DNA of 46,893 bases from Acidobacteriaceae bacterium (GTDB lineage Bacteria; Acidobacteriota; Terriglobia; Terriglobales; Acidobacteriaceae): NCBI GenBank assembly GCA_003132405.1, contig PKXQ01000056.1, forward strand, positions 1 to 46,893, given 5' to 3'. This document shows positions 3,168 through 44,781 of this stretch, piece after piece. The notes below the pieces were generated by a model. The model saw only the letters and a program-made list of their open reading frames with translations. It ran no database searches and had not been told where the DNA came from. The position numbers and the translations under genes were made by a program. The number at the start of each line of letters is the position of its first letter. Position 1 is the first letter of the stretch.

Positions 3168-6100
3168 ATGAAGGCAAAGCCCTCCCTCTCAACTCTCTCT
3201 CTTTTTACAAAAAGTGCTGTTGCGGTCATCTTCGCGCTCATCTTCGGGGCAGCGGCGTTTGCGCAAATCGATCGCGCAGAGCTTGAAGGCACGGTGACCG
3301 ATCCGTCGGGAGCCGCGGTTGCCGGGGCGAGTGTGAAGATCGTAACCGCCGACACCGGCCTCACCGCCACCCAGTCGTCAAATACTGTCGGCTACTACCG
3401 CTTCCCAGGCCTCGCCATCGGCCGCTACTCGGTGACAGTTTCGAGCAGCGGCTTTAAGACTACCGTGATTCAGAATGTCATTCTGGAAGTGGGAGAGACG
3501 CACACCCAGGACATCAAGCTTCCGGTTGGAGCGGTGACTGAAAAGGTTGAGGTCAACGCTTCCAATGAACTGACCAACCGCACTTCGGCCGAGGCAGGCA
3601 CCGTGATTCGGCCGGATCAACTTGAAGATCTTGCGAACAATGGACGCGACTGGACCACCTTATCGTTGCTGGCGCCGTTTGCCCAGGACGACGGCGGTGG
3701 CGACCAGAGGACAATCCGTTTTGCGGGGCGGGCGCGCGATGACAACAACTTCTCGATCGACGGTGTCGATGCGGGCGGCATTCAGGAACAGGCACAGAAG
3801 TCGACGACGCGTCTGCAGATCTCAGAGGACGCTATCGAAGAGTATCGGGTCGACAGCGCGCTGTATGACGTGGAGTATGGAACGCAAGCGGGCGGCCAGA
3901 TCGACGCCGAAACCAAGTCCGGCACGAACAATCTCCACGGCACGGTCTATGGTTATCTCAGAAATTCCTATTTCGACGCGCGCAGTTTCCTGGATTTCGA
4001 CATAAACGGCAACGCCGCAATCTCCCCATTCCGGATGGGGCAATATGGGATGTCGCTCGGCGGGCCGATTGTAAAGAACAAGACATTTTTCTTCATTAAC
4101 TATGAAGGAATTCGCCAATTGCAGTTCAATGGCCAGCAAATGATTGTGCCCGCCGGAATCTGCTGCGCCAATTTTTCCGAACTGCTACCTCAGAACGAGC
4201 CCACCGAGCCTTACCAAAAGTACGTTCTGGATCAGGCGCAGAGCCTTGGCATCGGACCCACGATGTGCCAGATCATGGGGGCATTTCCCTGGCGCGCCTC
4301 GGTCGGTTCGATCGATGGCTGCACGCCACGCTTCGTCATTCCCGATGGGAGTTTCCAGTGGCAAGGCAATGTCGCCACAAATCCGAATCCGAACGAGGAT
4401 TTGCTCACCGTCGGCAGGCAAACGACTATCCACGAAGATACCTGGCTCGTACGGATTGACCAGAAGATCAGCGACAAAACCCTGCTTTATGGCCGCGCCC
4501 AGCGCGACATCAGCATTTGGCATGCGCCGGCTACGAACCCAACGGTACCCGGGGATAACCAGTCAACCATCAATCATCCGGCAAATTACATGCTGGCGTT
4601 GCAGCACACATTCAGTCCCACCGTATTCAACGAAGCGAAGCTCTATATCAATCGATCGCCATTTCACAACCCCGGGGGAAGCGCATTACCGTTTAATGTC
4701 ACCACTAACGATTTCGTCACGCTCAACAACACCAGCGCCGATGTCGAGGTCGGCACAACCTACGGCGGAATTGACAATCTGACCTGGGTTCATGGGCGGC
4801 ACGCGTTCAAGGCGGGTATGGAAATCCGCCGCGTCCGCCTCAATCAGGGGCAAACTTCGAACAACGTGCTCACCTTCGGCGACGACTACTCGCTCGCGAC
4901 AGCAGCTTTGAGCAGCATCGATTACATCGCCCCGTGGTGCTGTCACCGGCTGCGCCGGACTTTCTACATGCCGTATTTTCAGGACGAATTTAAGGTCACG
5001 CCAACGTTCACATTCACGGCTGGCGTTCGCTGGGATTATTACGGCGTTGCCACGGAGGCGACGAATCGAACTACAGTGTTCGACCTGAATGAGTTTCATG
5101 GTGTCTGTCTGGGATCGGGTTCCTACAACGTGGCACCTAGTCCAGGCCCGATCAACACCGCACCGTGTCCCAAAAATCCGGCTTTATATAACGCAAGCCA
5201 CCGCAACTTTGATCCGAGGCTTTCTCTCGCCTGGGCGCCTGAAAAGTATCACGGGAAGACCGTGTTTCGAGCGGGATATGGCATCTATCACGGCGCAGCG
5301 CAAAATGACGACTTGAACGCGGGGCTGGAGAGTGACACGTTTCGCATCCTCGTGAATTCTTTTAATAACGAAACCTTGCAACCCGCCTGGGCGCAACAGG
5401 ACCCGGATCTCTCCGGTATTCCTAGTACATCGAAACAAGCGAACCACCCGCGGGCGTTACAGCGAGAGGGCCGCCGCGATCTGTATGTGGAAACATGGGG
5501 GCTGACGGTGGAGCATCAACTGCCGGCCAATTTCCTGTTCTCGTTGCAATATATCGGCAGCCGCGGCGTGCATCTCTTCTCGCGCGGGGCTGTGAATTTG
5601 TGCACCGAGCCGGTCACGTACAACCCAGTGGACACCGATTGCTTTCGAACTTTAGACCCGTACTATCCGAACGGCAATCCCTTCGGCTCGGTCGACTACA
5701 AAAGCGATATTGGAGCCAGCACCTATCACGCGCTGGGAGTATCTCTTGAACGGCGTCTCACAAACGGCTTGTCCTTCCAGTCACGCTATACCTGGTCGCA
5801 TTCCATTAACGACGGATCGGTTGGCGGAGGCGAATCCACCGGTCCAGAAAATGTGAATTGCCTTGAATGCGATAAGGGTCCCAGCGTCTATGACGTTCGG
5901 AACAATATTGCAGTTAACACTGAATACGAGCTTCCATTCGGGCCGGGCAAACCGTATGCGAACTATACCGGTGCACTCGGCAAAATCATCGGCGGATGGA
6001 GCCTGAGCAGCATTGGCCTGTGGCATACCGGGCACCCGTTGACGGTGCAGATGGATCTGAGCGGCACAATCGATCCCACCATATTCCCGAATTCTCCGTT

Positions 6101-32034: not shown

Positions 32035-35000
32035 TCAATGAAAATCGTGCGACACCGTCTCTGCCTTCGTAACTCGAAGCGGCGAAACTTTTTCTGCCCG
32101 TATATGAATAACGTTGTCTTGGTTCTGCAAAATCCCTTCGATCATCACGAAGCGCTCGGAGATCAGCAACACGCGATTTTTCTGCAGCAGGTCAGGGCTG
32201 AAAATCGCATTGGCGATGCCCGTTTCATCTTCCAGGCTCATGAACATCATTCCCTTGGCTGTACCGGGCCGCTGGCGGGCAATCACGCATCCGCCAATGC
32301 GCAAGCGCCGTCCATTCGGAAGATGTGCCAGATCGCAAGCGCGAATAATCCCCATCTTTTTCATTTCTGCTCGCCGATACTGCATGGGATGCGGCCCCAC
32401 GGTCAGCCCGGTTGCGCGAAAGTCGGCCACCAACCGTTCTTCGTCCGTCATCGCCGCAAGTGGTGATCCCTCCCCAATTTCCGGCAACTCATCTTCCGGT
32501 AGCTCATCGAGCAACGGCCCCGACCAGCGGACCGCCCGCTCCACCTGCCAAAGCGCATCGCGCCGATGAAGTTTAAGGTTTTGTCTTTCACTGGCAACTG
32601 ACGACTGGCCACTGGCCACTGAATTAAGCGCGCCAATTTCCGCCAGCGTCGTCAATTCATCCTTGCGCAACTCGGGCACGCGGCGGGCCAAATCCTGAAT
32701 CGAAGCAAACGGAGCCAAACTGCGCTCACGAACCAATGCCTGCCCTCCCGGCTCGCGCAACCCGCGCGCGTATTTCAGGCCCAGACGTACTGCAATATTC
32801 TTACCGGCAAAATCATTGCCTTTACTGGCCACTAGCAACTGGCCGCTGGCAACTGCTTCCAAACTGCACTTCCAATCCGAACGGGTCACATCCATGGGCA
32901 ACATTTTCAATCCGTGCCGCTGCGCATCTTTCACAATTGTCGCAGGATGATAAAAACCCATCGGCTGATTATTGAGCAGCGCTGCCGTAAAAGCCGCCAG
33001 GTAATGACATTTCAAATAAGCGCTGGCATAAGCAATCAAGGCAAAGCTCGCGGCATGCGATTCGGGAAATCCATAAAGCGCAAACGAAGTGATCGCCTGG
33101 ATAATCTGCTCCTGCGTCTCGCCGAGAATTCCATTGCGTGTCATGCCGGCGCGCAACTTCTCTTCGATCACTTTCATTCGCGCTTCCGAACGCTTGAATC
33201 CCATGGCGCGGCGCAACTCTTCCGCCTCGCCGCCGGTGAAGTTGGCCGTGATCATGGCCATGCGCAGCAACTGCTCCTGAAACAGCGGCACGCCCAGGGT
33301 GCGGCCGAGCACCGTCTCGAGCGACGGATGCGGGTATGTGACATCTTCTCTGCCTTGCCGCCGCTTGAGAAATGGATTGACCATATTCCCCACGATCGGC
33401 CCCGGCCTGATGATCGCCACCTGCACGACGATGTCGTAAAACTTTTTTGGCATGAGCCGCGGCAGGCACGCCATCTGCGCCCGGCTCTCCACCTGGAACA
33501 TTCCCACCGTGTCGGCTTTTTGCAGTGTCGAATAAACGACGGGATCCTCCGCCGGAAGATGCGCCAGATCTACGTCTTCGTGATAGTGATCGCGAATCAG
33601 TTCGAGAGAATCTTTGAGCGCGGCCATCATGCCGAGGCCCAGCAGATCGACTTTGATGATGCCCATGTCGGCGCAATCTTCTTTATCCCACTGCACGACC
33701 ACGCGGCCCGGCATGGACGCGGGCTCCAGTGGCACGACAGAATCAAGCCGGCCTTCACAGATAACCATTCCTCCAGAATGCTGGCCCAGATGGCGCGGCA
33801 AATCCCGCGCCGCGAGACACAACTCGAAATATTTGCGAATCCGCGGATGCTTAAGATCGAGGCCGGCATCACATAGGCGGCGATCCAGCGCATCATGCTC
33901 GTCTTTGAATTCCCAGGTTGCGACCGCCGCTGAAATTCTTTTCAGCGTATCGTCGTCGAAGCCCATCGCCTTGCCCATCTCGCGCGCCGCCATGCGATTG
34001 CGATAGGTGATCACGTTGGCGGTCATCGCCGCGCCGCGCTGTCCGTAGCGTTGATAGACATGCTGGATAACGCGTTCGCGTTCGCCGCCACTCGGCAAAT
34101 CAAGATCGATGTCAGGCCATTCGCCGCGTTCCTCGGAAAGAAAACGCTCAAACAACAATTCCATCCCGATAGGATCAACTGCTGTAATACCGAGCGAGTA
34201 GCAAACTGCGCTATTGGCGGCCGATCCGCGGCCCTGCACCAGAATTTTCTGCTCGCGGCAGTAGCGCACTATGTCCCAGACGATCAAAAAATAGCCGGCC
34301 AGTTTCAGATGGTCGATCAAATTTAATTCGCGTTCGATTTGCCGGCGCGCGCGCTTTTTCAACTCCGCGTCCGCCCGGCCGTACCGGCTCTGCCATCCTT
34401 CCCGCGTGCGTTCGCGCAGAAACGACATCATCGTTTCTCCCTCCGGCACGGGATAACGTGGAAACTCATATCCCAAATCATTGAGCGCGAATTCCAGCCG
34501 CGAAGAGAGTTCGAGAGTGTTGGTGATGGCCTGCGGAACATCCGCAAAGAGCGCTCGCATTCCCGCGGGAGATTTGAGAGAGCGTTCGGCATTGCGCGCC
34601 AGCAGGCGGCCGGCAGTAGCCAGCGTGCGATGATGGCGCAACGCGGTGAATGCATCTGCCAGTTCGCGCTCCCGAGGCGACGCATAATTCACGCCATTGG
34701 TCGCGAGCAGCGGCAGCTGCAAAGCCTCTGCAATTTGAATCGCAACCCGATTGCGATATTCCTCATCGCGATGATAATGCCGTTGCAATTCGACGTAAAC
34801 ATTTGCTCGCCCAAATATTTCCGTCAATCGCCGGACTGCTTCGCACGCCGCCTGCGGCCCAGCTTGTCTGAGCGCTGCAGCCAGCGGCCCCTCTTCTCCG
34901 CCGGTCAAACAAATCAAGCCGTCGGCATGCTCGATAAAATCCGCATCCTCCGCAGAGGCTCCTTCCTTGCGGCCAACCCACAATTTCATTTTTGTTATCA

Positions 35001-35289
35001 GGCGGCAAAGGTTTTGATAGCCCGCGCGCGAAGCAACCAGCAGCGGGAGCCGAAATTGACCACTGAGAGAGGGCGGAAGAGCAGCGCATGTGATTTCCGC
35101 CCCAATATGCGCCTTGATCTTCGCTTTTTTTGCGGCGAGATGAAAACGCGGCGAGCTGTAGAGCCCATCGCGATCAAGCATGGCCATCGCCGGCATCGCA
35201 AGGTTTGCGCACACCGCAACTAATTCCTCGGGAAGCGAAGCACCTTCGAGAAAGCTGAATGCGGAGCGGGAGTGGAGTTCAATGTACAT
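32035..35289 (-). CDS. dnaE2: Error-prone DNA polymerase DnaE2 (ImuC)
   Basis: Alpha-subunit-type C-family polymerase of 1084 residues that performs damage-tolerant DNA synthesis with ImuA and ImuB. An N-terminal PHP domain starts with HSRSAFSFLEGASLP. The polymerase active site includes GRGSAANSAVCYSLGI and the catalytic acidic loop PDIDLDLPSG (near 393). Other landmarks are QHSGGMVICEG and GFPESHAASFALIAYASAYL. A C-terminal OB-fold spans about 990-1075. Two stretches near 811-822 (VASGQLLVAS) and 886-899 (VASGQSSVAS) are translated copies of a short dispersed DNA repeat and are not part of the normal family sequence. They sit at loops flanking a conserved GLKYARGL helix, and the frame is kept. 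Confidence 0.95.
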   Translation of the reverse strand: MYIELHSRSAFSFLEGASLPEELVAVCANLAMPAMAMLDRDGLYSSPRFHLAAKKAKIKAHIGAEITCAALPPSLSGQFRLPLLVASRAGYQNLCRLITKMKLWVGRKEGASAEDADFIEHADGLICLTGGEEGPLAAALRQAGPQAACEAVRRLTEIFGRANVYVELQRHYHRDEEYRNRVAIQIAEALQLPLLATNGVNYASPRERELADAFTALRHHRTLATAGRLLARNAERSLKSPAGMRALFADVPQAITNTLELSSRLEFALNDLGYEFPRYPVPEGETMMSFLRERTREGWQSRYGRADAELKKRARRQIERELNLIDHLKLAGYFLIVWDIVRYCREQKILVQGRGSAANSAVCYSLGITAVDPIGMELLFERFLSEERGEWPDIDLDLPSGGERERVIQHVYQRYGQRGAAMTANVITYRNRMAAREMGKAMGFDDDTLKRISAAVATWEFKDEHDALDRRLCDAGLDLKHPRIRKYFELCLAARDLPRHLGQHSGGMVICEGRLDSVVPLEPASMPGRVVVQWDKEDCADMGIIKVDLLGLGMMAALKDSLELIRDHYHEDVDLAHLPAEDPVVYSTLQKADTVGMFQVESRAQMACLPRLMPKKFYDIVVQVAIIRPGPIVGNMVNPFLKRRQGREDVTYPHPSLETVLGRTLGVPLFQEQLLRMAMITANFTGGEAEELRRAMGFKRSEARMKVIEEKLRAGMTRNGILGETQEQIIQAITSFALYGFPESHAASFALIAYASAYLKCHYLAAFTAALLNNQPMGFYHPATIVKDAQRHGLKMLPMDVTRSDWKCSLEAVASGQLLVASKGNDFAGKNIAVRLGLKYARGLREPGGQALVRERSLAPFASIQDLARRVPELRKDELTTLAEIGALNSVASGQSSVASERQNLKLHRRDALWQVERAVRWSGPLLDELPEDELPEIGEGSPLAAMTDEERLVADFRATGLTVGPHPMQYRRAEMKKMGIIRACDLAHLPNGRRLRIGGCVIARQRPGTAKGMMFMSLEDETGIANAIFSPDLLQKNRVLLISERFVMIEGILQNQDNVIHIRAEKVSPLRVTKAETVSHDFH
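32590..32631. repeat. Dispersed short repeat inside dnaE2 (copy 1)
   Basis: Made of tandem variants of ACTGGCCACTGGC / CAACTGACGACTGGCC. The minus-strand reading gives SVASGQSSVAS in frame in DnaE2. The same type of sequence recurs at 32824, 35290, 37092 and 37376. Confidence 0.75.
32824..32857. repeat. Dispersed short repeat inside dnaE2 (copy 2)
   Basis: ACTGGCCACTAGCAACTGGC followed by CGCTGGCAACTG. In frame it encodes AVASGQLLVAS in DnaE2. Closely similar to the copy 200 bases away. Confidence 0.75.
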
Positions 35290-35333
35290 CAGCTTTCCAG
35301 CTCTCAGCCGTCAGCTATCAGTTAGCTCTCGCC
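35290..35333. repeat. Dispersed short repeat between imuB and dnaE2
   Basis: AGCTCTCAGCCGTCAGCTAT followed by CAGTTAGCTCTC. Variant of the CAGCTATCAG / CAGCTCTCAG family, in the 68-base gap between imuB and dnaE2. Confidence 0.7.
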
Positions 35334-35357
35334 ACTGAGAAACCGAGAATTGTCTTC

Positions 35358-37088
35358 CTAGTCATACATTCCTTCCACAAACCACTTTCCACTTAGCCTG
35401 TCCTGCACCAGGCGATAGAGAACGAGTTGTTCATTATCCGAAGACACGGCAATGTCCCACTCCTCGCGCGACCAACCTTCCTGTTCGGACCAATCGCCGG
35501 AAGAGCGCCAAGGGCCGGCTGTCCAGACAATTTCACCGGCAATATCTTCGCGATCAAGGCAGCACAGTTGCACCGGCTTCGCTTCGCGCACGGTAACGCT
35601 CGCGACCAGCGGCGGACGAAACAGGCGCAGCGCAATCACCGCGCTCATTTTTTCTTCGCCATTTATTTTTATATTTTCTGCATGACTTTCTGCGAGTTCG
35701 CATGTCTTTTCGTTCCCTTGCATGGACATATTTTCTTCATCTTTCTTTCGATTTCCCGACGACTTGACTTTCGTTCTTAATTTGAGCGCAGGTTCCACCG
35801 GCGCGAAGTGCCGCATCGCAAACCCGCCTTCACGATGCGTATCCAGCAACTCCACCGACCCCACTCTTCCCTCCCCCACAATTCCCGCGATGCGTGCCAG
35901 CGTCAGCTCCAGCTTTTCCGGCTCGGGAAAAACCGGCTGAAACAATCCACTCTGCAGGGCTCGCGGACGCGCAGGCTGCGCCGACAAATCAATTTTCACG
36001 ATGGGCGCTCCCGGCAGATGCGCCTGTAAATCAAGCTGCAATAATTTCAGAAATACTCTCGCGTCGAGCATGGGCGTCGGCAGGCTTAAAGTGCGAGTGA
36101 ACTTTTGGTCGATTTTTCCGGCAAGTTTGTAAGTTGGCGTCTCCGCAAACGACGCGTCATCGTTCACCTGCGATGCAGAGAGTTTCAATTCCAGACGCAA
36201 CTCCTGCGCCGCCAGCGCTCGCGCGCTCAAGCGTGCACACAATTGTTCCAGCATGCGATTGAGCAAAAATGCCAGCGGCTCCAGCAACACGATGGGATGT
36301 TCCAGTTCCACGCTCTCGGCAAAAATCAACTGCGGTTCCCACACGCGCAAATTGCGCTGCACGGCGCCCCGCGCTAACTGTTGCAGACGGATTCCCTGCT
36401 GCCCCAATCGCTCGCTGACCGGAACTTCGGGCAGAGCCGCCAGCGCCCGCAATTTGCGAATGCCCCAGCGGTCCAACGTTTCCGACCAGCGGGCAGCCTG
36501 CTCAACATCGGAAGGAAAGCTGGAAAAGCCAGAAGAAAAAGTGGAAGAAAAACTTTCCAGCAGCACATCCACCGGCAGATTTCCGAGACGTTCGGCTTCA
36601 CGACCTTCAGGAATCAAAGTCACGCCGGGGAGCCCACGAGCCGCGAGCAGGGCGGCGTCCGGGTTTGCCGCCATGGCTATGTATGCTTCCAGTCCCAACT
36701 GAGAAACATGTTGCGACAAATTGCTCGCAATCTTCGGCAAGGGACCGAGCAGCGGCTCGAGGCCGGCAAGGTTCAACAGCACGATGCCGGGCGAGGTATC
36801 TTCCACTTCCGGAGAAAACGACTGCACACAATCGAGGAGAGCAGCGTGCGCTGACGACTCCTGCGACTCCGAGCGTGCACGCAGAACGAGGTTTTCCCAT
36901 GCTTCGAGTTGCGACTTAGTCGCGCCTACCTCTACTCCTGATTGCCGCGCTCTTTCGTTGAGAGCCACGACTTTTTCCAGCGGAGGCCGGCCGCCGCCCA
37001 GCACCGCGACCGAGCGCCCGCGCAACTCAGGCTCAAAGCGAACGATCGCTTGCACGGAAAAATCGGGAATGAAAATACAGGCAAACAT
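35358..37088 (-). CDS. imuB: ImuB, Y-family polymerase-like subunit
   Basis: Protein of 576 residues, inactive Y-family polymerase relative that bridges DnaE2 to the sliding clamp. The palm and finger region starts at MFACIFIPDFSVQAIVRFEP. The acidic residues of active Y-family polymerases are not all conserved, which is usual for ImuB. The thumb/HhH part includes ETLDRWGIRKLRALAALPEV (near 206-225), and a little-finger domain follows. A linker around 450-485 is rich in Lys/Glu/Ser. The last part (RLFRPPLVASVTVREAKPVQ, then SGDWSEQEGWSREEWDIAV) fits the ImuB C-terminal domain. It lies between imuA and dnaE2 on the same strand, as in canonical cassettes. Confidence 0.92.
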   Translation of the reverse strand: MFACIFIPDFSVQAIVRFEPELRGRSVAVLGGGRPPLEKVVALNERARQSGVEVGATKSQLEAWENLVLRARSESQESSAHAALLDCVQSFSPEVEDTSPGIVLLNLAGLEPLLGPLPKIASNLSQHVSQLGLEAYIAMAANPDAALLAARGLPGVTLIPEGREAERLGNLPVDVLLESFSSTFSSGFSSFPSDVEQAARWSETLDRWGIRKLRALAALPEVPVSERLGQQGIRLQQLARGAVQRNLRVWEPQLIFAESVELEHPIVLLEPLAFLLNRMLEQLCARLSARALAAQELRLELKLSASQVNDDASFAETPTYKLAGKIDQKFTRTLSLPTPMLDARVFLKLLQLDLQAHLPGAPIVKIDLSAQPARPRALQSGLFQPVFPEPEKLELTLARIAGIVGEGRVGSVELLDTHREGGFAMRHFAPVEPALKLRTKVKSSGNRKKDEENMSMQGNEKTCELAESHAENIKINGEEKMSAVIALRLFRPPLVASVTVREAKPVQLCCLDREDIAGEIVWTAGPWRSSGDWSEQEGWSREEWDIAVSSDNEQLVLYRLVQDRLSGKWFVEGMYD

Positions 37089-37091
37089 GGG

Positions 37092-37120
37092 GGATCAGCT
37101 ATCAGTTGTCAGCTCTCAGT
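37092..37120. repeat. Dispersed short repeat between imuA and imuB
   Basis: GATCAGCTATCAGTTGTCAG followed by CTCTCAGT. Same family as the copies in dnaE2 and imuA. It lies in the 125-base gap between imuA and imuB. Confidence 0.75.
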
Positions 37121-37213
37121 AAAGACTCATGCTTCAAATAACAATGACGAATGATGGCGATAAGAATTCTGAGTCTGTAACTGGAACCAGTGATTTCGAA
37201 CTTATGAAATAAA

Positions 37214-38197
37214 CTATCCCGCCCATGCGGCTCGACTCTGGAAACTTGCTCTGGTTGATTGCACTGGCTTGCGCTCCAACTTGCGTTCCAGGCGCGAACA
37301 CATCAACTCGACGGTGATTTCAAATTGATCTAACAATTCCGCATGCGATAACTCCGCATGCATGGGCGGTTTTCCTGATAGCTGACATCTGATCGCTGAC
37401 AGCTTTTTCGCGCCTGACACCTTCAGCAGCATCGACGAGCAACTCCCGGCAATGGGCTGCCGTTCCAATACCAGCAGCACGGTCGGCGTATGCTCAACCG
37501 CGCGTCGAAAGCGGAACCACGATGCCAGAGGAATTCGCCGCGCACTCGCCATCGGAACATCGCCGAGATCGAGGGCGATCATTCCGAAACCATTGCTCTG
37601 CAGCAGCAAGTCGGTGACTTTCAGAACTTGCCCCAACCGCGATTCCCAACGCTGGCCTTCCGGATGGAGCCCCGGACTCCTCTTCCCCGGCAATTCCTCA
37701 GATCGAGAGTTTGTTCTACGCCCGGCCGATGGAGGTTTACGTGAGGGATATTTTTCTCCGCATCGCACCCACAGCAAACGGCTCATCTCCATACCCGCCG
37801 CTGCGGCAGATGCGGGATCGAACGCATCGCCCGTATCCACCAGCGCGCAAACTTCTCCGCGCTCGGTGGCGCGGGCCAGCGCGAAAAGCAATATGCTGGT
37901 CCTCCCCGAAGAGGCCGTGCCGCAGATTTCCGTGAGGCAACCGCGAGCCAGGCCGCCCGTCAGTGAATCCAGTTGCGCGAGGCCGCTTGAAACCATTTCC
38001 GGCGTCGCGCGCACCTCCAGGCGCGAAGCAGGAACGACCGCTGCCAACTTGGGGCTTGCGCCCATAAGGGCTGAAATCTCCGCAGCATTCCTAATGATCT
38101 TCGCGGCCGTGGGGCGCGGAGAAACTGAAGGAGCCGCCGAAGAGAAAATAAAATGGCGGCCAGTGGCCGCCGATGAAAAAACCGGAGAGGCAGACAT
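37214..38197 (-). CDS. imuA: ImuA, RecA-like protein of the translesion cassette
   Basis: Protein of 327 residues with a divergent RecA-like core: LDSLTGGLARGCLTEICGTA, then SSGRTSILLFALARA (Walker A-like, near 118-126), CALVDTGDAF (Walker B-like) and MIALDLGDVP. ImuA proteins support mutagenic repair by ImuB and DnaE2. Residues about 264-274 (KLSAIRCQLSGK) are encoded by an in-frame copy of the dispersed repeat. It is the first gene of the imuA-imuB-dnaE2 operon. A promoter with TTGACA and GATACT at 17-base spacing, plus a candidate LexA site, lies 56-108 bases upstream, consistent with SOS control. Confidence 0.88.
   Translation of the reverse strand: MSASPVFSSAATGRHFIFSSAAPSVSPRPTAAKIIRNAAEISALMGASPKLAAVVPASRLEVRATPEMVSSGLAQLDSLTGGLARGCLTEICGTASSGRTSILLFALARATERGEVCALVDTGDAFDPASAAAAGMEMSRLLWVRCGEKYPSRKPPSAGRRTNSRSEELPGKRSPGLHPEGQRWESRLGQVLKVTDLLLQSNGFGMIALDLGDVPMASARRIPLASWFRFRRAVEHTPTVLLVLERQPIAGSCSSMLLKVSGAKKLSAIRCQLSGKPPMHAELSHAELLDQFEITVELMCSRLERKLERKPVQSTRASFQSRAAWAG
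37376..37404. repeat. Dispersed short repeat inside imuA
   Basis: TGATAGCTGACATCTGATCG followed by CTGACAGCT. It is translated in frame within ImuA and is absent from the family pattern as I know it. Confidence 0.7.
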
Positions 38198-38493: not shown

Positions 38494-38568
38494 GGCGCTA
38501 TCGTCTAGGGGTTAGGACGGAAGATTCTCAATCTTCAAACCCGGGTTCGATTCCCGGTAGCGCTACCA
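38494..38568 (+). tRNA. tRNA-Glu (anticodon CTC)
   Basis: The acceptor stem GGCGCTA pairs with TAGCGCT (one G-T at the end). The anticodon stem GAAGA/TCTTC holds the loop TTCTCAA with anticodon CTC (Glu, GAG codon). The T arm is CCGGG-TTCGATT-CCCGG, and the CCA end is encoded. The D arm contains the usual GGGGTTAGG. The integrase gene starts 57 bases after its 3' end, so this gene is the probable attachment site of the island. No second copy of its 3' end was seen in the window. Confidence 0.95.
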
Positions 38569-38624
38569 ACCTTCCTTAAGCCATTTTCTTGCAATAGGTT
38601 GTAGCCTGCCAAAATTTTGTCACG

Positions 38625-39971
38625 GTGCATGTCCCTGTAATTCCGCCGGATTTTCCCAGAAAGTCGGTATTGCTGGATATGTCGAACCGAAGAGTCAGCA
38701 TCATTGAACGAGTCAAACGAGATGGGAAATGGATGTGGGGCGAGAAGTGGGAGCTTCCGGTCAAGTTCACCTTGAAGCAAGGTTCCCGCCAAGGGAAGTT
38801 TTACGTGCTCTGGTATCGCGGTGCCAACAAGGTCTTGACCCCCGTGCCTCAAAACAACGGCGAATCGCTTCCCAACCTCAGCGGAGCCTTGCGCCTAGCG
38901 AAAATCAAGCAGCGGCATCTGGAGGACGAAGCGGACGGCTTGCAACGCCCTGATCCCATCAAGCCAGTGAACCGCATCACCATCCAGGAGGCCGTGCACA
39001 AGTTCGTCACTCAAATCGAGCTCACCAAGAACCCGCTTACCTACAAGATTTATGAGCAGAACCTCCGTGAATATTCAGAATGGACGAAGCTGACCTACGT
39101 CGATGAGATCGACAAGGACCATCTGTTTGAATACCGCAAACACGTCATGGACGGCGGGAACGAGCGTCTCACGGCGGATTGGAAACTGCTGCGGATAAAC
39201 AAAATGGTCAAGACCGTCCTGAAATTGGATCACGGCAAAGGGCCGATCAAGAAATCAGACCTCGGCAAGATGAAGCCAAACGGCGATCCTGATATCTATA
39301 CGCCGTAGGAGTTGCAGGCGTTTTTTGGGGCATGCAGGCCGGACGAGCATCTGCGTTACTCGGCGCTGCGTGAGGCAGCGTTTCGCAAGAAAGAGTTGAT
39401 GTACCTTGAGAAGGACGATGTTCTGGTCTCGCAGCAGATGCTCCAAGTCAAGTCTAAGGAGCGTCGCGACAACGACGGAAATCTGCTTTACAAGTATGCG
39501 GCTAAAGCCGACAGCGAGCGGGCCGTGCCGATCAGCCGCGAGTTGATGGAGAGGATCGTTCAGCACATGGCCTCGCACCGGCATCGGCTTGTCTTCTGCA
39601 CGCGCTCAGGGAAGCCGGACACGCACCTGTGGGACAAGATCAAGTCCGTAGCGAAGCGCGCGGGTCTTGACCCCGCCCGCTTCAACCTGAAGAAGTTTCG
39701 TGCCACGCAGGCGACGCAATGGCTCCGGCCCAAGTGGCTTGGCGGTTTTGGCTACGACATGCCAACCGTAAAGCGACTGCTCGGGCACGAGAAGGACAGC
39801 GACTCGGTCTGGTCTTATGTGCGGCGCGTGGAGAACGAAAACTTGGTCGCGGAAATGAACAGGCAAAAAGAAAAAGGCTCTCCGCTGGACGGGACGAGCA
39901 GACAGCTCAAGGGCCCTGTGGTTGTAACTCAAAAAGGTGCAGTCGCGGTGACGGGTGTCCAAGCTTTCTGA
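38625..39971 (+). pseudogene. Tyrosine-type integrase with in-frame amber stop
   Basis: One continuous reading frame of 448 codons interrupted only by TAG at 39306-39308 (DIYTP-stop-ELQAFFGAC). The family pattern at this point is YTPEEL, so a Glu or Gln codon mutated to TAG is likely. The first part has an arm-like and SAM-like DNA-binding region (PLTYKIYEQNLREYSEW). The second has the catalytic domain: Arg in AAFRKKELMYLEKDDV, a beta-hairpin Lys (LQVKSKERRD), the second box LKKFRATQATQWL, LLGHEKDSDS and the nucleophile Tyr in VWSYVRRV. Without suppression two fragments would be made. A start at 38679 is also possible. Its position next to tRNA-Glu indicates that it inserted the island. Confidence 0.85.
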
Positions 39972-40411: not shown

Positions 40412-40818
40412 TCAGGGCAAAGAAGCCGACCTATACTGGCGGACTCCGCAAGAAGTGTGGCGACAACATCTACGAGCCTCAGGCTTCAGGAGGAGGCTAC
40501 CGTCAACTCCGCTCTATGCATTCGAACGGAGATTCGGAGGACGAAGAAAACAAGGCGCACGACCTTGGCGGCAAACGCATTCTGGTCTCTGAGACCTTCG
40601 CATATTTCGGCTCCAAGGCGTTGCCGCTGCCCACCCGATTCCAGTCTCTCATCGTTCAGCGCGGTCATCGCTCTCGATTTTCCGACGACTTAAAAGCCGA
40701 GTTCATCCGTCTTGCCGGAAGTGTCAGATTCGGTGTCCATGGAGCACCTCGGCGATGGCCGGACGGCGATAATTCATGGATGAAGGGTTGCGGCTGCACG
40801 CCGCGAAAGAAGAAATGA
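40396..40818 (+). pseudogene. Nmad2-like nucleotide-modification protein, C-terminal half
   Basis: From about 40396 the frame shows the C-terminal pattern of the family I recognise as nucleotide modification-associated domain 2: WSDRRFRAKKP, CGDNIYEP, HSNGDSEDEENKAHDLGGKR, ILVSETFAYFGSKALPLP, GHRSRF and GVHGAPRRWPDGD. The N-terminal half (normally containing the FAPNPF and CKPxIR segments) is missing. The sequence upstream instead belongs to the antisense zinc-ribbon remnant, so a deletion joined the two. An ATG at 40297 could still start a 173-residue chimera. The stop overlaps the Nmad3 start by 4 bases (ATGA), indicating a former operon. The family name is from memory and should be confirmed by a profile search. 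Confidence 0.7.
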
Positions 40819-41679
40819 GAATCATTTTTAGCCGCAAGGGTTTCGACTCGTCTTCGGGAGGCGTGCCGAGTCCTATCTTCCCGGACGGCAGAATGTTATC
40901 GCTGCCTATCCCCGACAGGCTGTCGAGGATCGCTTACGCGGACATTTCCGGCAATAACTGGGCGACCAGTGGGAGAAGCTGTATCGCAGTTGGCAGGCAT
41001 TCCCCCGACGCATCGCGCTCATTTAGACCCTGATCTTGTCTGCGACTGCTTTCCGAGAGGCGAAGGTTGGCGACCGATTTTTGGGCAGGTCGGCTCGGCA
41101 GAAGGCCACCTGAGAAAGCAAGGAGTTTGTAAAGGCGACATCTTTCTGTTCTTTGGGTTATTTCGGAAGGTTGAGCAATCGATCTCAGGGTGGCGATACG
41201 TGAGAGATAGCAAGCCCGTGCACGTATTGTTCGGCTGGCTTCAAATAGCCGAGCGAGTCCCCGTTTCGGCGTGGCCTGTTACCGACCACTGGGCGCTGTA
41301 CCATCCTCACCTCGCACGAGAGCCACACAAAAGCAATGTGATCTACGTCTCCAATGAACGCCTGACACTAGCGCAAAGGGAATGTCAGGGAATTGCTGGC
41401 GCTGGGGTGTTCTCGTTCTTCTCGCCCCTATTGCGATTGACAGCGCCGAAGTCCGACCGCCCCGGTCTTTGGCTGTTGCCCAAGTGGTTCTATCCGAAGC
41501 ATCGTAAATCTGCGCTGAGTTTCCACGGCGACGTATCTCGCTGGAAGAAGTCGAGTAGCGGCACGATGCTGTCCTCGGTATCTCGTGGACAGGAATTTGT
41601 TCTCGACTGCGACGACTATCCAGAAGCGGTAGACTGGCTCGGCGATCTCTTCGATTCCCCTGCCGCTTCGTGTGCTTAG
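40815..41679 (+). pseudogene. Nmad3-like nucleotide-modification protein, frameshifted
   Basis: The start at 40815 gives the typical N-terminus MRIIFSRKGFDSSSGGVPSP of the family I recognise as nucleotide modification-associated domain 3. After about 50 codons the frame changes near 40960-40970. It resumes as GEAVSQLAGIPP, HLDPDL, GWRPIFGQVGSAEGHLRKQG and GDIFLFFGLFRKVE, then NVIYVSNERLTL, LWLLPKWFYP and LSFHGDVSRW at the end. Both parts belong to one protein of about 288 residues. The enzymatic role of the family is unknown; it is predicted to act with DNA-base-modifying enzymes. It overlaps the Nmad2 fragment by 4 bases, so the two were co-translated. Single-base sequence error is an alternative to decay. 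Confidence 0.7.
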
Positions 41680-41689
41680 TTTCAATGCC

Positions 41690-41840
41690 GAAGAAAAACG
41701 ATCCGCAAGACCGCCTCGTCCGCTACCGCCAGATCAAGATTCAGCGCGGTCGGCAGGAAGTCCGGGTAGCACCATTCTCGATCCGGTCTCCTGATCTGCC
41801 GCAAGACAGTCGCAAGTCGCCGAGTTGTCGAAGCTAGGTG
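41690..41840 (+). pseudogene. Decayed partial copy of the 43214 gene
   Basis: The stretch AAGAAAAACGATCCGCAAGA at 41695, continuing CGCTACCGCCAGATCAAGAT, matches the part of the downstream reductase-like gene around 43500-43600 (coding for RYRQIKISVIGRKSGK). Similarity runs for roughly 100 bases with several small gaps and then fades. It has no open frame of its own. It shows that a second copy of that gene existed here, before the HhH gene. Confidence 0.7.
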
Positions 41841-41911
41841 ATGCCCGTCACAGCAGCACATGATCAGTTCTGACACAGTGTTTGCAAACTAAACAGGCAG
41901 GGAGATCAAAC

Positions 41912-42448
41912 GTGGACATCTTCGCTTTCGTGCTCCAGTTCGACCCGTCTGAAATAACCGGACTTGCCGCTCGATACGGTTCCGAACAGGACGAGGAGGT
42001 ATTCAAGGCTGGGAGCTACATCAGGGACGGGAATTACAGCCGCGAAAACCTGAAGGTGATTGTTCGCTGGAAGTCGGCCCGTAAGATTGCCTTCATAGAC
42101 GACAACACAGACTCGGAGATTGCCCGCGCTCTGCGATTCGCCGCTGACACCCGCACCAGCGAGAAATTAGCGGTAGAAATCCTTGACCGCCTGCATGGAG
42201 TAGGCTTACCCATGGCGTCTGCCATCCTTACTGCAATCCACCCGGACAAGTACACAGTCATTGATTTTCGCGCTCTGGAATCCCTTGGCGTAAGCAAATG
42301 GCCGACTGACTCGATTGACTACTACGTCAGTTATTTGCAGAAATGCCGCGAATTAGCTCATAAGCACCATGTGGATTTGAGAACGCTTGACCGTGCACTC
42401 TGGCAATGGTCGAAAGAACACGGCAAGCAGAAAACGGCGTGCGCCTAA
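41912..42448 (+). CDS. Helix-hairpin-helix (DNA glycosylase-like) protein
   Basis: Protein of 178 residues. GTG 41912 is chosen because GGGAG lies 8 bases upstream; a TTG at 41882 is possible. The central segment LDRLHGVGLPMASAILTAI is a helix-hairpin-helix with the GVGxxxA turn that binds DNA backbone. It is followed by HPDKYTVIDFRALESLGV, where the Asp lies at the position of the catalytic Asp of HhH-GPD base-excision glycosylases. The rest is alpha-helical and ends in a basic tail. Length and layout resemble small OGG/HhH-GPD-like proteins, but the family is not one I can name. It lies 17 bases before a nuclease-like gene and probably forms an operon with it. Confidence 0.65.
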   Translation: MDIFAFVLQFDPSEITGLAARYGSEQDEEVFKAGSYIRDGNYSRENLKVIVRWKSARKIAFIDDNTDSEIARALRFAADTRTSEKLAVEILDRLHGVGLPMASAILTAIHPDKYTVIDFRALESLGVSKWPTDSIDYYVSYLQKCRELAHKHHVDLRTLDRALWQWSKEHGKQKTACA

Positions 42449-42465
42449 AGTAAAGAGTTCTGCCA

Positions 42466-43203
42466 ATGAGAAAACCAGAACAAGATCAGCATAGCGGTCG
42501 CACCAGAGTCAGCCCAGTTTTTAAATGGCTCAGCGAACACGGTGGCACAGGTTGGATGACAGAACTGTTGCGCCTCGCGGACGGAATTGAGCTATCCGAT
42601 GGTGTTGGAGAGGTCATCTCTTTGTGGGTTGGGAAAGAGCGAACAGTTGCACCAAGCGCAGGAAGACTAGCGTGGATGATCCGCAACGCACACAAGCTGG
42701 CTCCCGTCGATGGTCGCCAATGGAGGGAGTATCGGCGACGGGTTATCGACAACCCGAAAAAAGAAGAGGCTCTACGCAAGCTTGATGCGGGAGACTTGAA
42801 GCGCATCCCGGCGAAATTGAAGCTCGAAGGTTGTACGCATGCAGATTGCCTCATTGAATGCGAAAAAGCATTTGTCTGGGTCGAAGGGAAACGCAATGAT
42901 TGGCTGTCACCCAACATCAAGTGGGACGTGACCCGCGACCAACTCGCAAGAAACCTCGAAGCTTTGTGGCTATTGGCTAGAAAAGCCGAAAAGGATTTTT
43001 GGTTGTTGATTTGCCATGAGTACGATCTGAAGCACCATGAACAGGAACTCATCAGCGGCTATCGAGCGGGGACGTGGAAAGCCGGGTTTCCACATCTACC
43101 AATGGATGTTAGGACAATCTTTCAGCGGAAAATTGGCACTGTGAGATGGAGCACGATCTTTGATCACTGGCATGATCTAGCAGCAACGTTTGATGAGCAG
43201 TAA
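42466..43203 (+). CDS. PD-(D/E)XK nuclease-like protein
   Basis: Protein of 245 residues. The segment CTHADCLIECEKAFVWVEGK (about 124-143) fits the PD-(D/E)XK core: Asp in ADCLIE, then Glu-x-Lys in VEGK, followed by an amphipathic helix (DVTRDQLARNLEALWLLARK) with the Arg/Gln often found in such nucleases. The N-terminal 110 residues are mainly helical, and the C-terminal part has FDHWHDLAATF. I do not recognise a named family. The codons are intact and the gene follows the HhH gene on the same strand, 17 bases later. Together they could recognise and cut DNA carrying a particular base or lesion. That is inference. Confidence 0.6.
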   Translation: MRKPEQDQHSGRTRVSPVFKWLSEHGGTGWMTELLRLADGIELSDGVGEVISLWVGKERTVAPSAGRLAWMIRNAHKLAPVDGRQWREYRRRVIDNPKKEEALRKLDAGDLKRIPAKLKLEGCTHADCLIECEKAFVWVEGKRNDWLSPNIKWDVTRDQLARNLEALWLLARKAEKDFWLLICHEYDLKHHEQELISGYRAGTWKAGFPHLPMDVRTIFQRKIGTVRWSTIFDHWHDLAATFDEQ

Positions 43204-43213
43204 GGAAGACGTG

Positions 43214-43849
43214 ATGGAAACATGTTTCCGAAGAAATGAGGAGTTGAGACGCATGCCAAACTACCCTGCAAGAGGCGGTGAACTCAGAACGTTCGAGGAT
43301 AATGGCAAATGGACGTATGTGGTGATCTTTAAAGACAAAGAGCACAGACCCGGCATGTTGCCGTTTAGGAAAAAGTACTTCAACAAAGAGCCAGAAGCAT
43401 ATAGGGCGGCGCTTGAGATGTATAAGTATGTAGATGTGCCACCGCAATCTCCCGTCCGTTTCGTAAAAAAGAAAGCTCCCCGACGCGTGCCAACTCCGCA
43501 GGACAACCTCAAAGAACGCCTCTCCCGCTACCGCCAGATCAAGATCAGCGTGATCGGCAGGAAGTCCGGGAAGACAATCTCGATTCCGGTCTGGTTCGTG
43601 CTGGAAGACGAAATGCTGTACCTCCTCCCCGTGCAGGGTTCTGACACACAGTGGTACCGGAACGTGCTGGAGAACCCATCCATTCGAATTGATGCGCGTG
43701 ACGCTGAGGCAGAGTTTCAGGCCGTTACGATCACTGATGCCAAGACAGTGAAATCTGTGGTCGAGAAATTTCGGGAGAAGTACGGGTCAGGAGATGTAAG
43801 AAAGTATTATTCGAAATTCGATGTGGCGGTTGGGGTTGAGACGGGCTGA
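43214..43849 (+). CDS. Deazaflavin-dependent reductase-like (DDN) protein with N-terminal extension
   Basis: Protein of about 211 residues, start at METCFRR behind AAGGA. From about residue 105 it matches the split-barrel fold of F420/deazaflavin-dependent nitroreductases and pyridoxamine-phosphate-oxidase relatives: KISVIGRKSGKTISIPVWFV, LYLLPVQGSDTQWYRNVLEN, then a C-terminal helix with FREKYGSGDVRKYYSKFD. The first 95 residues (MPNYPARGGELRTFEDNGKW, PGMLPFRKKYFNKEPEAYRA) do not belong to that family and look like a separate small domain. The gene may therefore be a fusion made when the island formed. A partial copy of its second half lies at 41690. Cofactor and substrate are unknown. Confidence 0.65.
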   Translation: METCFRRNEELRRMPNYPARGGELRTFEDNGKWTYVVIFKDKEHRPGMLPFRKKYFNKEPEAYRAALEMYKYVDVPPQSPVRFVKKKAPRRVPTPQDNLKERLSRYRQIKISVIGRKSGKTISIPVWFVLEDEMLYLLPVQGSDTQWYRNVLENPSIRIDARDAEAEFQAVTITDAKTVKSVVEKFREKYGSGDVRKYYSKFDVAVGVETG

Positions 43850-43963: not shown

Positions 43964-44596
43964 ATGGTGTCCTCGACTCGTGCATCAACGGATAGCAAAG
44001 CGAGATACGAACTGCATCGACCGCCCTTGCTCTTCGAGGTGTTTTTCCAGTTCGCTAAAGTCACTGCTAGCGCGTCGTTTGGCTCTCTTCTCGTTCTCAA
44101 ATTGTGGACGCTTTTGGGCTTCACGGGAAACCACAAAGTATTGTGGACGTTTGGATGCGGGCTGGGTGCTCTTGGAGCGCCTTTTCTAAGCTTTACGCGT
44201 GAAGAGCTGGGGTTATGGAGAATCCAAGCCGACGGACCGTGCAAAACCATCCACATGCATGTGATTCGGCCAAAACGTGTAAGCGTGACCACTAGCAGAT
44301 CATCTCTCCACGATTTTCTGGCTTACAGTCCGACGCAGATAGCAGCGTTGTGCATATTGTTGCTTGGGCCGGGGACTTGCTGTTGGCTGAGTATCAGTGC
44401 GCTCTCGTTGGCACTAAGTCCGTGGGCTGCCGATCTCCACATTTCTCCGTTTTGGGCAGCGAAAGCGATGCTCTTCGCGCCTTTAATTGGGCTGGTGCTA
44501 GGACTGCTCTTTGCTTTGATAGCGACCCCTTTCGTGCTGGTTGTAAGAAGAATCATGCGCCGACACCAAAATGAGCCCTCGGGAGCGGACAAATGA
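43964..44596 (+). CDS. Four-helix membrane protein coupled to patatin
   Basis: Protein of 210 residues with four predicted membrane segments at about 27-52, 58-78, 126-153 and 165-193. A polar loop at about 80-122 lies between the two pairs. It ends in a basic tail (VVRRIMRRHQNEP). I do not recognise a family. The last codons overlap the next ATG by 4 bases, so it was co-translated with the patatin gene. A membrane anchor or effector partner for the patatin is one possibility; nothing in the sequence proves it. Confidence 0.6.
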   Translation: MVSSTRASTDSKARYELHRPPLLFEVFFQFAKVTASASFGSLLVLKLWTLLGFTGNHKVLWTFGCGLGALGAPFLSFTREELGLWRIQADGPCKTIHMHVIRPKRVSVTTSRSSLHDFLAYSPTQIAALCILLLGPGTCCWLSISALSLALSPWAADLHISPFWAAKAMLFAPLIGLVLGLLFALIATPFVLVVRRIMRRHQNEPSGADK

Positions 44597-44781
44597 CCAT
44601 TGATGATCTTCGGAAAGCTCGTATTGGCCTAGTACTGGGCGGAGGCGGGGGCAAAGGTGCGTACGAAATCGGAGTGTGGAATACGCTCAGGAATGTCTAT
44701 GGCATCAAGATCGCCGCCGTTTCTGGGACATCAGTCGGAGCATTGAACGCTCGAGTACCTCGCTCACGTACTCGGTGGTGA
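44593..44781 (+). pseudogene. Patatin-like phospholipase, N-terminal fragment
   Basis: The first 52 residues match the patatin start: the glycine-rich oxyanion loop GLVLGGGGGKGAYEIGVWNT and the nucleophile elbow GTSVGAL (GxSxG). The frame then leaves the family after LNAR and stops within 10 codons. The rest of the domain, including the catalytic Asp (DGG), is missing, so this is a truncated gene. Patatins with this N-terminal pattern serve as lipid-degrading effectors in some phage-defence systems (CapV-type), which fits the island, but other roles are equally possible. Confidence 0.8.

Follow-up and report, generated by a model that had tools for sequence, protein, structure and literature searches.

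The window analyzed here, a 46,893-nucleotide stretch of an Acidobacteriaceae bacterium (contig PKXQ01000056.1 of GenBank assembly GCA_003132405.1), carries two adjacent genes, A and B, encoding a predicted Ogg2-like helix-hairpin-helix (HhH)-GPD protein and a predicted PD-(D/E)XK nuclease, respectively. We favor, at a probability of roughly two-thirds, the interpretation that A and B are two intact genes brought together in a tRNA-Glu hotspot and that they are likely independent stand-alone proteins rather than one system. The observations behind it are the open frames, the conservation of key residues, the model folds, the missing lysine of A, the lack of A-B pairing in the genomes searched, and the known defense genes near B relatives at four of six loci. 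An earlier sequence-only reading of this DNA had described two intact genes on the same strand, 17 bases apart, which is what we found; it had also proposed that they form one system, which the genome searches did not support. The features of the two genes are as follows.

41912..42448, + strand: gene A, predicted HhH-GPD (Ogg2-like) protein without the catalytic lysine, 178 amino acids (GTG start, open frame)
42191..42226, + strand: HhH hairpin of A, LHGVGLPMASAI (profile alignment, conservation)
42263..42265, + strand: Asp118 of A, predicted catalytic aspartate (profile alignment; Asp in 120/120 listed proteins)
42466..43203, + strand: gene B, predicted PD-(D/E)XK nuclease, 245 amino acids (ATG start, open frame)
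42844..42891, + strand: core of B, Asp127 (42844-42846) and Glu140-x-Lys142 (42883-42891), predicted metal-binding/catalytic residues (conservation, model strands)

Predicted folds and conserved residues of A and B

Both reading frames are clean, that of A running from the GTG at 41912 to a stop at 42448 and that of B from the ATG at 42466 to a stop at 43203. A could alternatively start at a TTG at 41882; a GGGAG stretch at 41900-41904, 7 bases ahead of the GTG, favors the GTG over this longer form. A scan of 41600-43300 found no promoter-like or terminator-like sites. At an E value of ≤0.001, 360 proteins matched A and 196 matched B, and the conservation counts given here refer to the best 120 of each set, with the window's own protein included.

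In A, the hairpin (LHGVG) is followed by Asp118, which profile alignment places on the Asp of an 8-oxoguanine glycosylase/AP lyase. Gly96 and Asp118 are each kept in all 120 listed proteins. The lysine position of the aligned enzyme is occupied by Pro100 (42209-42211), and the listed proteins have Pro (118), Thr (1), or Arg (1) there. The structural model of A is all-helical with no strand and is consistent with the HhH-GPD fold; its best structural match was the Ogg2 8-oxoguanine glycosylase/AP lyase, with the proviso that a family not appearing in the match lists for A or B is not thereby excluded. Profile libraries were less informative: A had no Pfam match, scored 14.3 bits against NCBIfam PRK01229 (N-glycosylase/DNA lyase), far under the cutoff of 183, gave a chance-level PADLOC match (TnsB, 0.025), and matched one PHROG family of unknown function (5e-12). 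PDB sequence searches with the single proteins returned weak matches alone (TnsB for A and a cilia protein for B). Thus, the earlier description of A as glycosylase-like stands with respect to the predicted fold and the Asp, but A lacks the catalytic lysine that its closest glycosylase counterparts have and is predicted to be a lysine-less, Ogg2-like HhH-GPD variant. On the basis of its fold and residues, the hairpin would bind DNA with the base flipped out, and Asp118 would activate a water molecule to hydrolyze the bond between base and sugar, thereby producing an abasic site. Six A relatives of 315 to 329 residues (P0096, P0101, P0105, P0110, P0111, and P0120) form a branch with a common N-terminal extension; P0101, the scanned member, had no Pfam match.

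In B, the Asp...Glu-x-Lys core that had been read from the letters was borne out by conservation. Asp127, Glu140, and Lys142 are each kept in 120/120 listed proteins and are retained in two distant relatives as well, and Glu58 is invariant. Asp127 and the Glu140-x-Lys142 motif sit on successive predicted strands (124-132 and 135-141), and the model has a central sheet bearing the motif, as expected for a PD-(D/E)XK fold, with moderate fold scores. Nothing matched B at an E value of ≤1 in Pfam, NCBIfam, PADLOC, or PHROGs; a broader B profile matched 534 proteins, and no Pfam domain was present in the best 120 of these. The model folds therefore support both assignments, that of PD-(D/E)XK for B more weakly than that of HhH-GPD for A. 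The 360 and 196 matching proteins, together with the invariance of key residues, argue that the motifs of A and B are more than chance. Judged by its motif, B would coordinate a divalent metal with Asp127, Glu140, and probably Glu58 and, together with Lys142, would cleave the phosphodiester bonds of invading phage or plasmid DNA, a target suggested by its neighborhood.

Distribution and neighborhoods of A and B relatives

The co-occurrence of A and B was examined in three sets of genomes. The 396 genomes of the phylum included 12 with a match to A, of which three are weak and span 67 positions, and 4 with a match to B, of which three are distant relatives; the window's own genome alone had both, metagenome contigs not having been searched. 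Among 200 genomes of the family, A was found in 11 and B in 1, and both occurred solely in the window's own genome. No A was found in four genomes with B relatives of 56 to 71% identity, a weak test for want of a positive control; the same A profile does detect A in other genomes. Conserved adjacency, which the sequence-only reading had set beforehand as a test of its two-gene proposal, was not seen in any of these sets, and a conserved A-B two-gene system was rejected for lack of co-occurrence, among the genomes searched, beyond the window's own.

Contig data were also compared. No longest contig of an A protein (119 compared) had the same length as that of a B protein (120 compared), which is a weak test (one longest contig per cluster was taken for the best 120 of 360 A proteins and of 196 B proteins, and P0077 had no value). 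The cluster of the window's A comprises 36 contigs and that of the window's B a single contig, suggesting that A also travels without B. Since hotspots gather unrelated genes, the adjacency of A and B would be explained without a joint function, and two clean adjacent genes within one decaying island are not in themselves evidence of a system.

Within our preferred interpretation, a narrower version, compatible with it, comes close to an even chance: A may be repair-type or DNA-binding cargo without immune function, only B being involved in defense. The surroundings of A relatives fit this version in several respects. Among 78 open reading frames (ORFs) around 12 A relatives, PADLOC matched an RtcR-like regulator, PrimPol-type primases, a coupling-protein ATPase also scoring mad8, and a GTPase scoring Leo, all of them generic. 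Of the five g2 genomes found, all but one (L047) have pyrG, a kdsA-like gene, or both next to A (two of these neighbors are Pfam supported, and the rest were read by eye). In another genus, g11, the A region has conjugation and replication genes (a conjugative coupling protein, SSB, Rad52, and a TOTE-type primase), and the formate dehydrogenase gene fdhF adjoins the A relative, on the opposite strand, on two of three haloarchaeal plasmids opened (L035 and L036). Neighbors recurred within lineages in the A neighborhoods examined, but no recurring nuclease partner was found.

The patchy distribution of A (12/396 genomes) speaks against simple cargo, as do its relatives on mobile DNA. Distant relatives are carried by haloarchaeal plasmids, by one plasmid of Deinococcus, and by the Haloarcula hispanica pleomorphic viruses 3 and 4; the plasmid search gave five distant relatives, the phage search matched four records of these two haloarchaeal viruses (pleolipoviruses), and viral contigs gave one distant relative (33% over part). 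Moreover, an in-frame stop or split frame was present at 5 of 15 nonweak A places, the window's included among the 15 (L007, L013, L014, L039, and L041 with L045), which may point to rapid gene turnover, above what we would expect of a core repair gene. In pleomorphic virus 4 (L037 4001-4435), the A relative starts ahead of the annotated ORF8 start; virus 3 was matched too.

The neighborhoods of B relatives were of a different kind. Known defense genes were present at four of six loci: the methyltransferase and restriction subunits of a type III system together with a HEPN/RES protein (L002); BrxA, BrxB, and BrxC of BREX just downstream of the B relative (L003); HmaC/DUF499, an Aga nuclease, and a short Argonaute (L004); and, for a distant B relative, a type IV-like restriction helicase accompanied by PLD and HNH proteins and a Helicase_II-like piece (L031). 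At L002, the HEPN/RES-domain protein (4388-5770) is directly flanked by a type III restriction gene on one side and by the B relative on the other. No defense gene was seen around the B relative at L005, where B lacks an internal stretch, or around the distant one at L032. The 32 ORFs neighboring B matched 49 PADLOC families, 48 of which were traced to individually scanned ORFs; the remaining family could belong to L005, L032, or another ORF, so that four of six may be an undercount. The six loci omit the weak B matches L068 and L070 (surroundings L071 and L072), one having a stop and the other matching over 88 positions at an E value of 1.7e-4, and L033, a partial match of 66 positions. Both neighborhood sets are small, and the A loci serve only as a rough control for those of B. 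No B relative was found in any of the viral contigs, plasmids, or phages searched.

These results make a defense role likely for B alone, and B is likely a defense enzyme of a kind so far uncatalogued; we regard it as a candidate new defense-nuclease family. Its surroundings are consistent with B acting as a single-gene accessory to a nearby restriction or BREX-type system. If B is a nuclease, it would be a component of several known kinds of defense islands that is unlisted in the PADLOC library used, and it is small enough to be tested on its own. That B is instead an inactive or regulatory protein with the PD-(D/E)XK fold is improbable: the fold scores are only moderate, and we know of no experimentally studied member of its family, but the core residues are invariant in the 120 listed proteins and kept in the two distant ones.

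A two-step defense unit, in which phage DNA loses its unusual bases to A and is then cut by B at the resulting abasic sites, is a shade less probable still. The shared strand, the short gap, and the clean frames amid a decaying region would suit such a unit, as would A's lack of the lysine responsible for strand cleavage in related enzymes, and a base-excising defense protein with an operon partner does exist, as reported for Brig3-BapA (PMC13160076). Against it, no second genome among those searched has both genes, B is found next to BREX, restriction, and Argonaute genes with no A present, and A for its part is found with no B on mobile elements and in chromosomes. Cooperation of A and B at abasic sites is possible but unsupported. 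Least probable of all is a combination in which B represents a new single-gene anti-phage nuclease family of BREX, restriction, and Argonaute islands that has here captured A, with A making abasic sites and B cutting them, as an HhH-based form of base-excision immunity distinct from the uracil-glycosylase and HALFPIPE types.

The tRNA-Glu hotspot and its decaying genes

The island holding A and B lies downstream of a tRNA gene and contains the following additional features.

38494..38568, + strand: tRNA-Glu(CUC) beside an imuA-like gene (this tRNA recurs elsewhere in the genus, followed by other genes)
38625..39971, + strand: tyrosine integrase broken by an in-frame stop, with pieces 38625-39308 and 39312-39971 in the same frame (ORFs, Pfam)
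40776..41679, + strand: Nmad3 (PF18754) in two frames, profile positions 1-47 in 40776-41033 and 52-247 in 40969-41679
41656..41905, + strand: decayed partial DUF2255/F420H2_quin_red-like copy (local score, 132; ≤46 in 20 shuffles)
43190..43849, + strand: open DUF2255/F420H2_quin_red-like gene; the match covers residues 110-207, and the first 109 residues have no Pfam match

The imuA-like gene had a match, several of them weak, in 20 of 21 genomes of the genus. At six fetched loci, the tRNA-Glu was identical at three, cut by a contig end at one, 77% alike at one, and not found at one; at all five loci reaching that far, the genes past it, read by eye, differ from those of the window. The tRNA-Glu site is an insertion hotspot holding A and B. 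No 11-mer of 38494-38600 was repeated downstream on the same strand as an attachment-site repeat. The decay of the island noted in the sequence-only reading was confirmed by the in-frame stop of the integrase and the frame change of Nmad3. The adjoining Nmad-type genes that it had reported came down to a single Nmad3 gene, which appears from its sequence to be frame-broken or misassembled. A and B are flanked by parts of the decayed (41656-41905) and the open (43477-43673) DUF2255-like copies, as if inserted at a duplication. A mutagenesis cassette (32035-38197) encoding DnaE-type polymerase, IMS-domain, and RecA-domain proteins (Pfam) borders the hotspot; we take its genes to be DnaE2, ImuB, and ImuA. 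A patatin fragment (44593-44781) consists of a 62-residue frame matching only the first 41 domain positions.

Comparison with known systems

For B, the comparison is with PD-(D/E)XK proteins of defense and restriction, namely Can2, Cdn1, McrC, LmuA, HamA, Cap4, and N.BspD6I, from which B differs in having 245 residues and no recognized extra domain; apart from the weak hit given above, no PDB sequence match to it was found. For the pair, no combination of an HhH glycosylase with a PD-(D/E)XK nuclease was found among the literature titles and abstract openings listed. DefensePredictor highlights predicted systems with a nucleotide-modification-associated domain, and one of its figure legends names a uracil-DNA glycosylase (UDG) (PMC13092281).

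The fold of uracil-DNA glycosylases is alpha/beta, whereas the model of A is all-helical HhH. The anti-phage DNA glycosylases Brig1 (PMC11078745) and Brig3 (PMC13160076) demonstrate that glycosylases may serve in immunity, but both are placed with the uracil-DNA glycosylases in those papers and differ from A in type. Brig3 is described there as part of a two-gene operon inside a defense island; its partner, BapA, is a glucosyl hydrolase and not a nuclease. R.PabI and R.CcoLI are reported to restrict DNA by base excision and are described as a separate superfamily, HALFPIPE (PMC7229829, PMC7806768).

The closest likeness of A is to Ogg2 (MjOgg, TmOgg, and SsOgg; PRK01229), with which it shares the predicted all-helical HhH-GPD fold; the hairpin, the Asp, and a C-terminal Asp...Trp stretch are in register with the aligned 8-oxoguanine glycosylase/AP lyase chain, which we read as being of the Ogg2 type. 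A differs from Ogg2 in that Pro replaces the Schiff-base lysine of the hairpin and in missing the curated family cutoff. With A, the Ogg2-like glycosylases would gain a branch that lacks the lysine and has relatives in archaeal viruses and on plasmids. HhH-GPD glycosylases without the catalytic lysine have been described: Sis-HhH-GPD and Mja-UDG both carry Glu in its stead, and in Sis-HhH-GPD a Ser takes the position of the Asp (PMC11754123). A resembles these two enzymes in lacking the lysine and differs from them in having Pro instead of Glu and in retaining the Asp.
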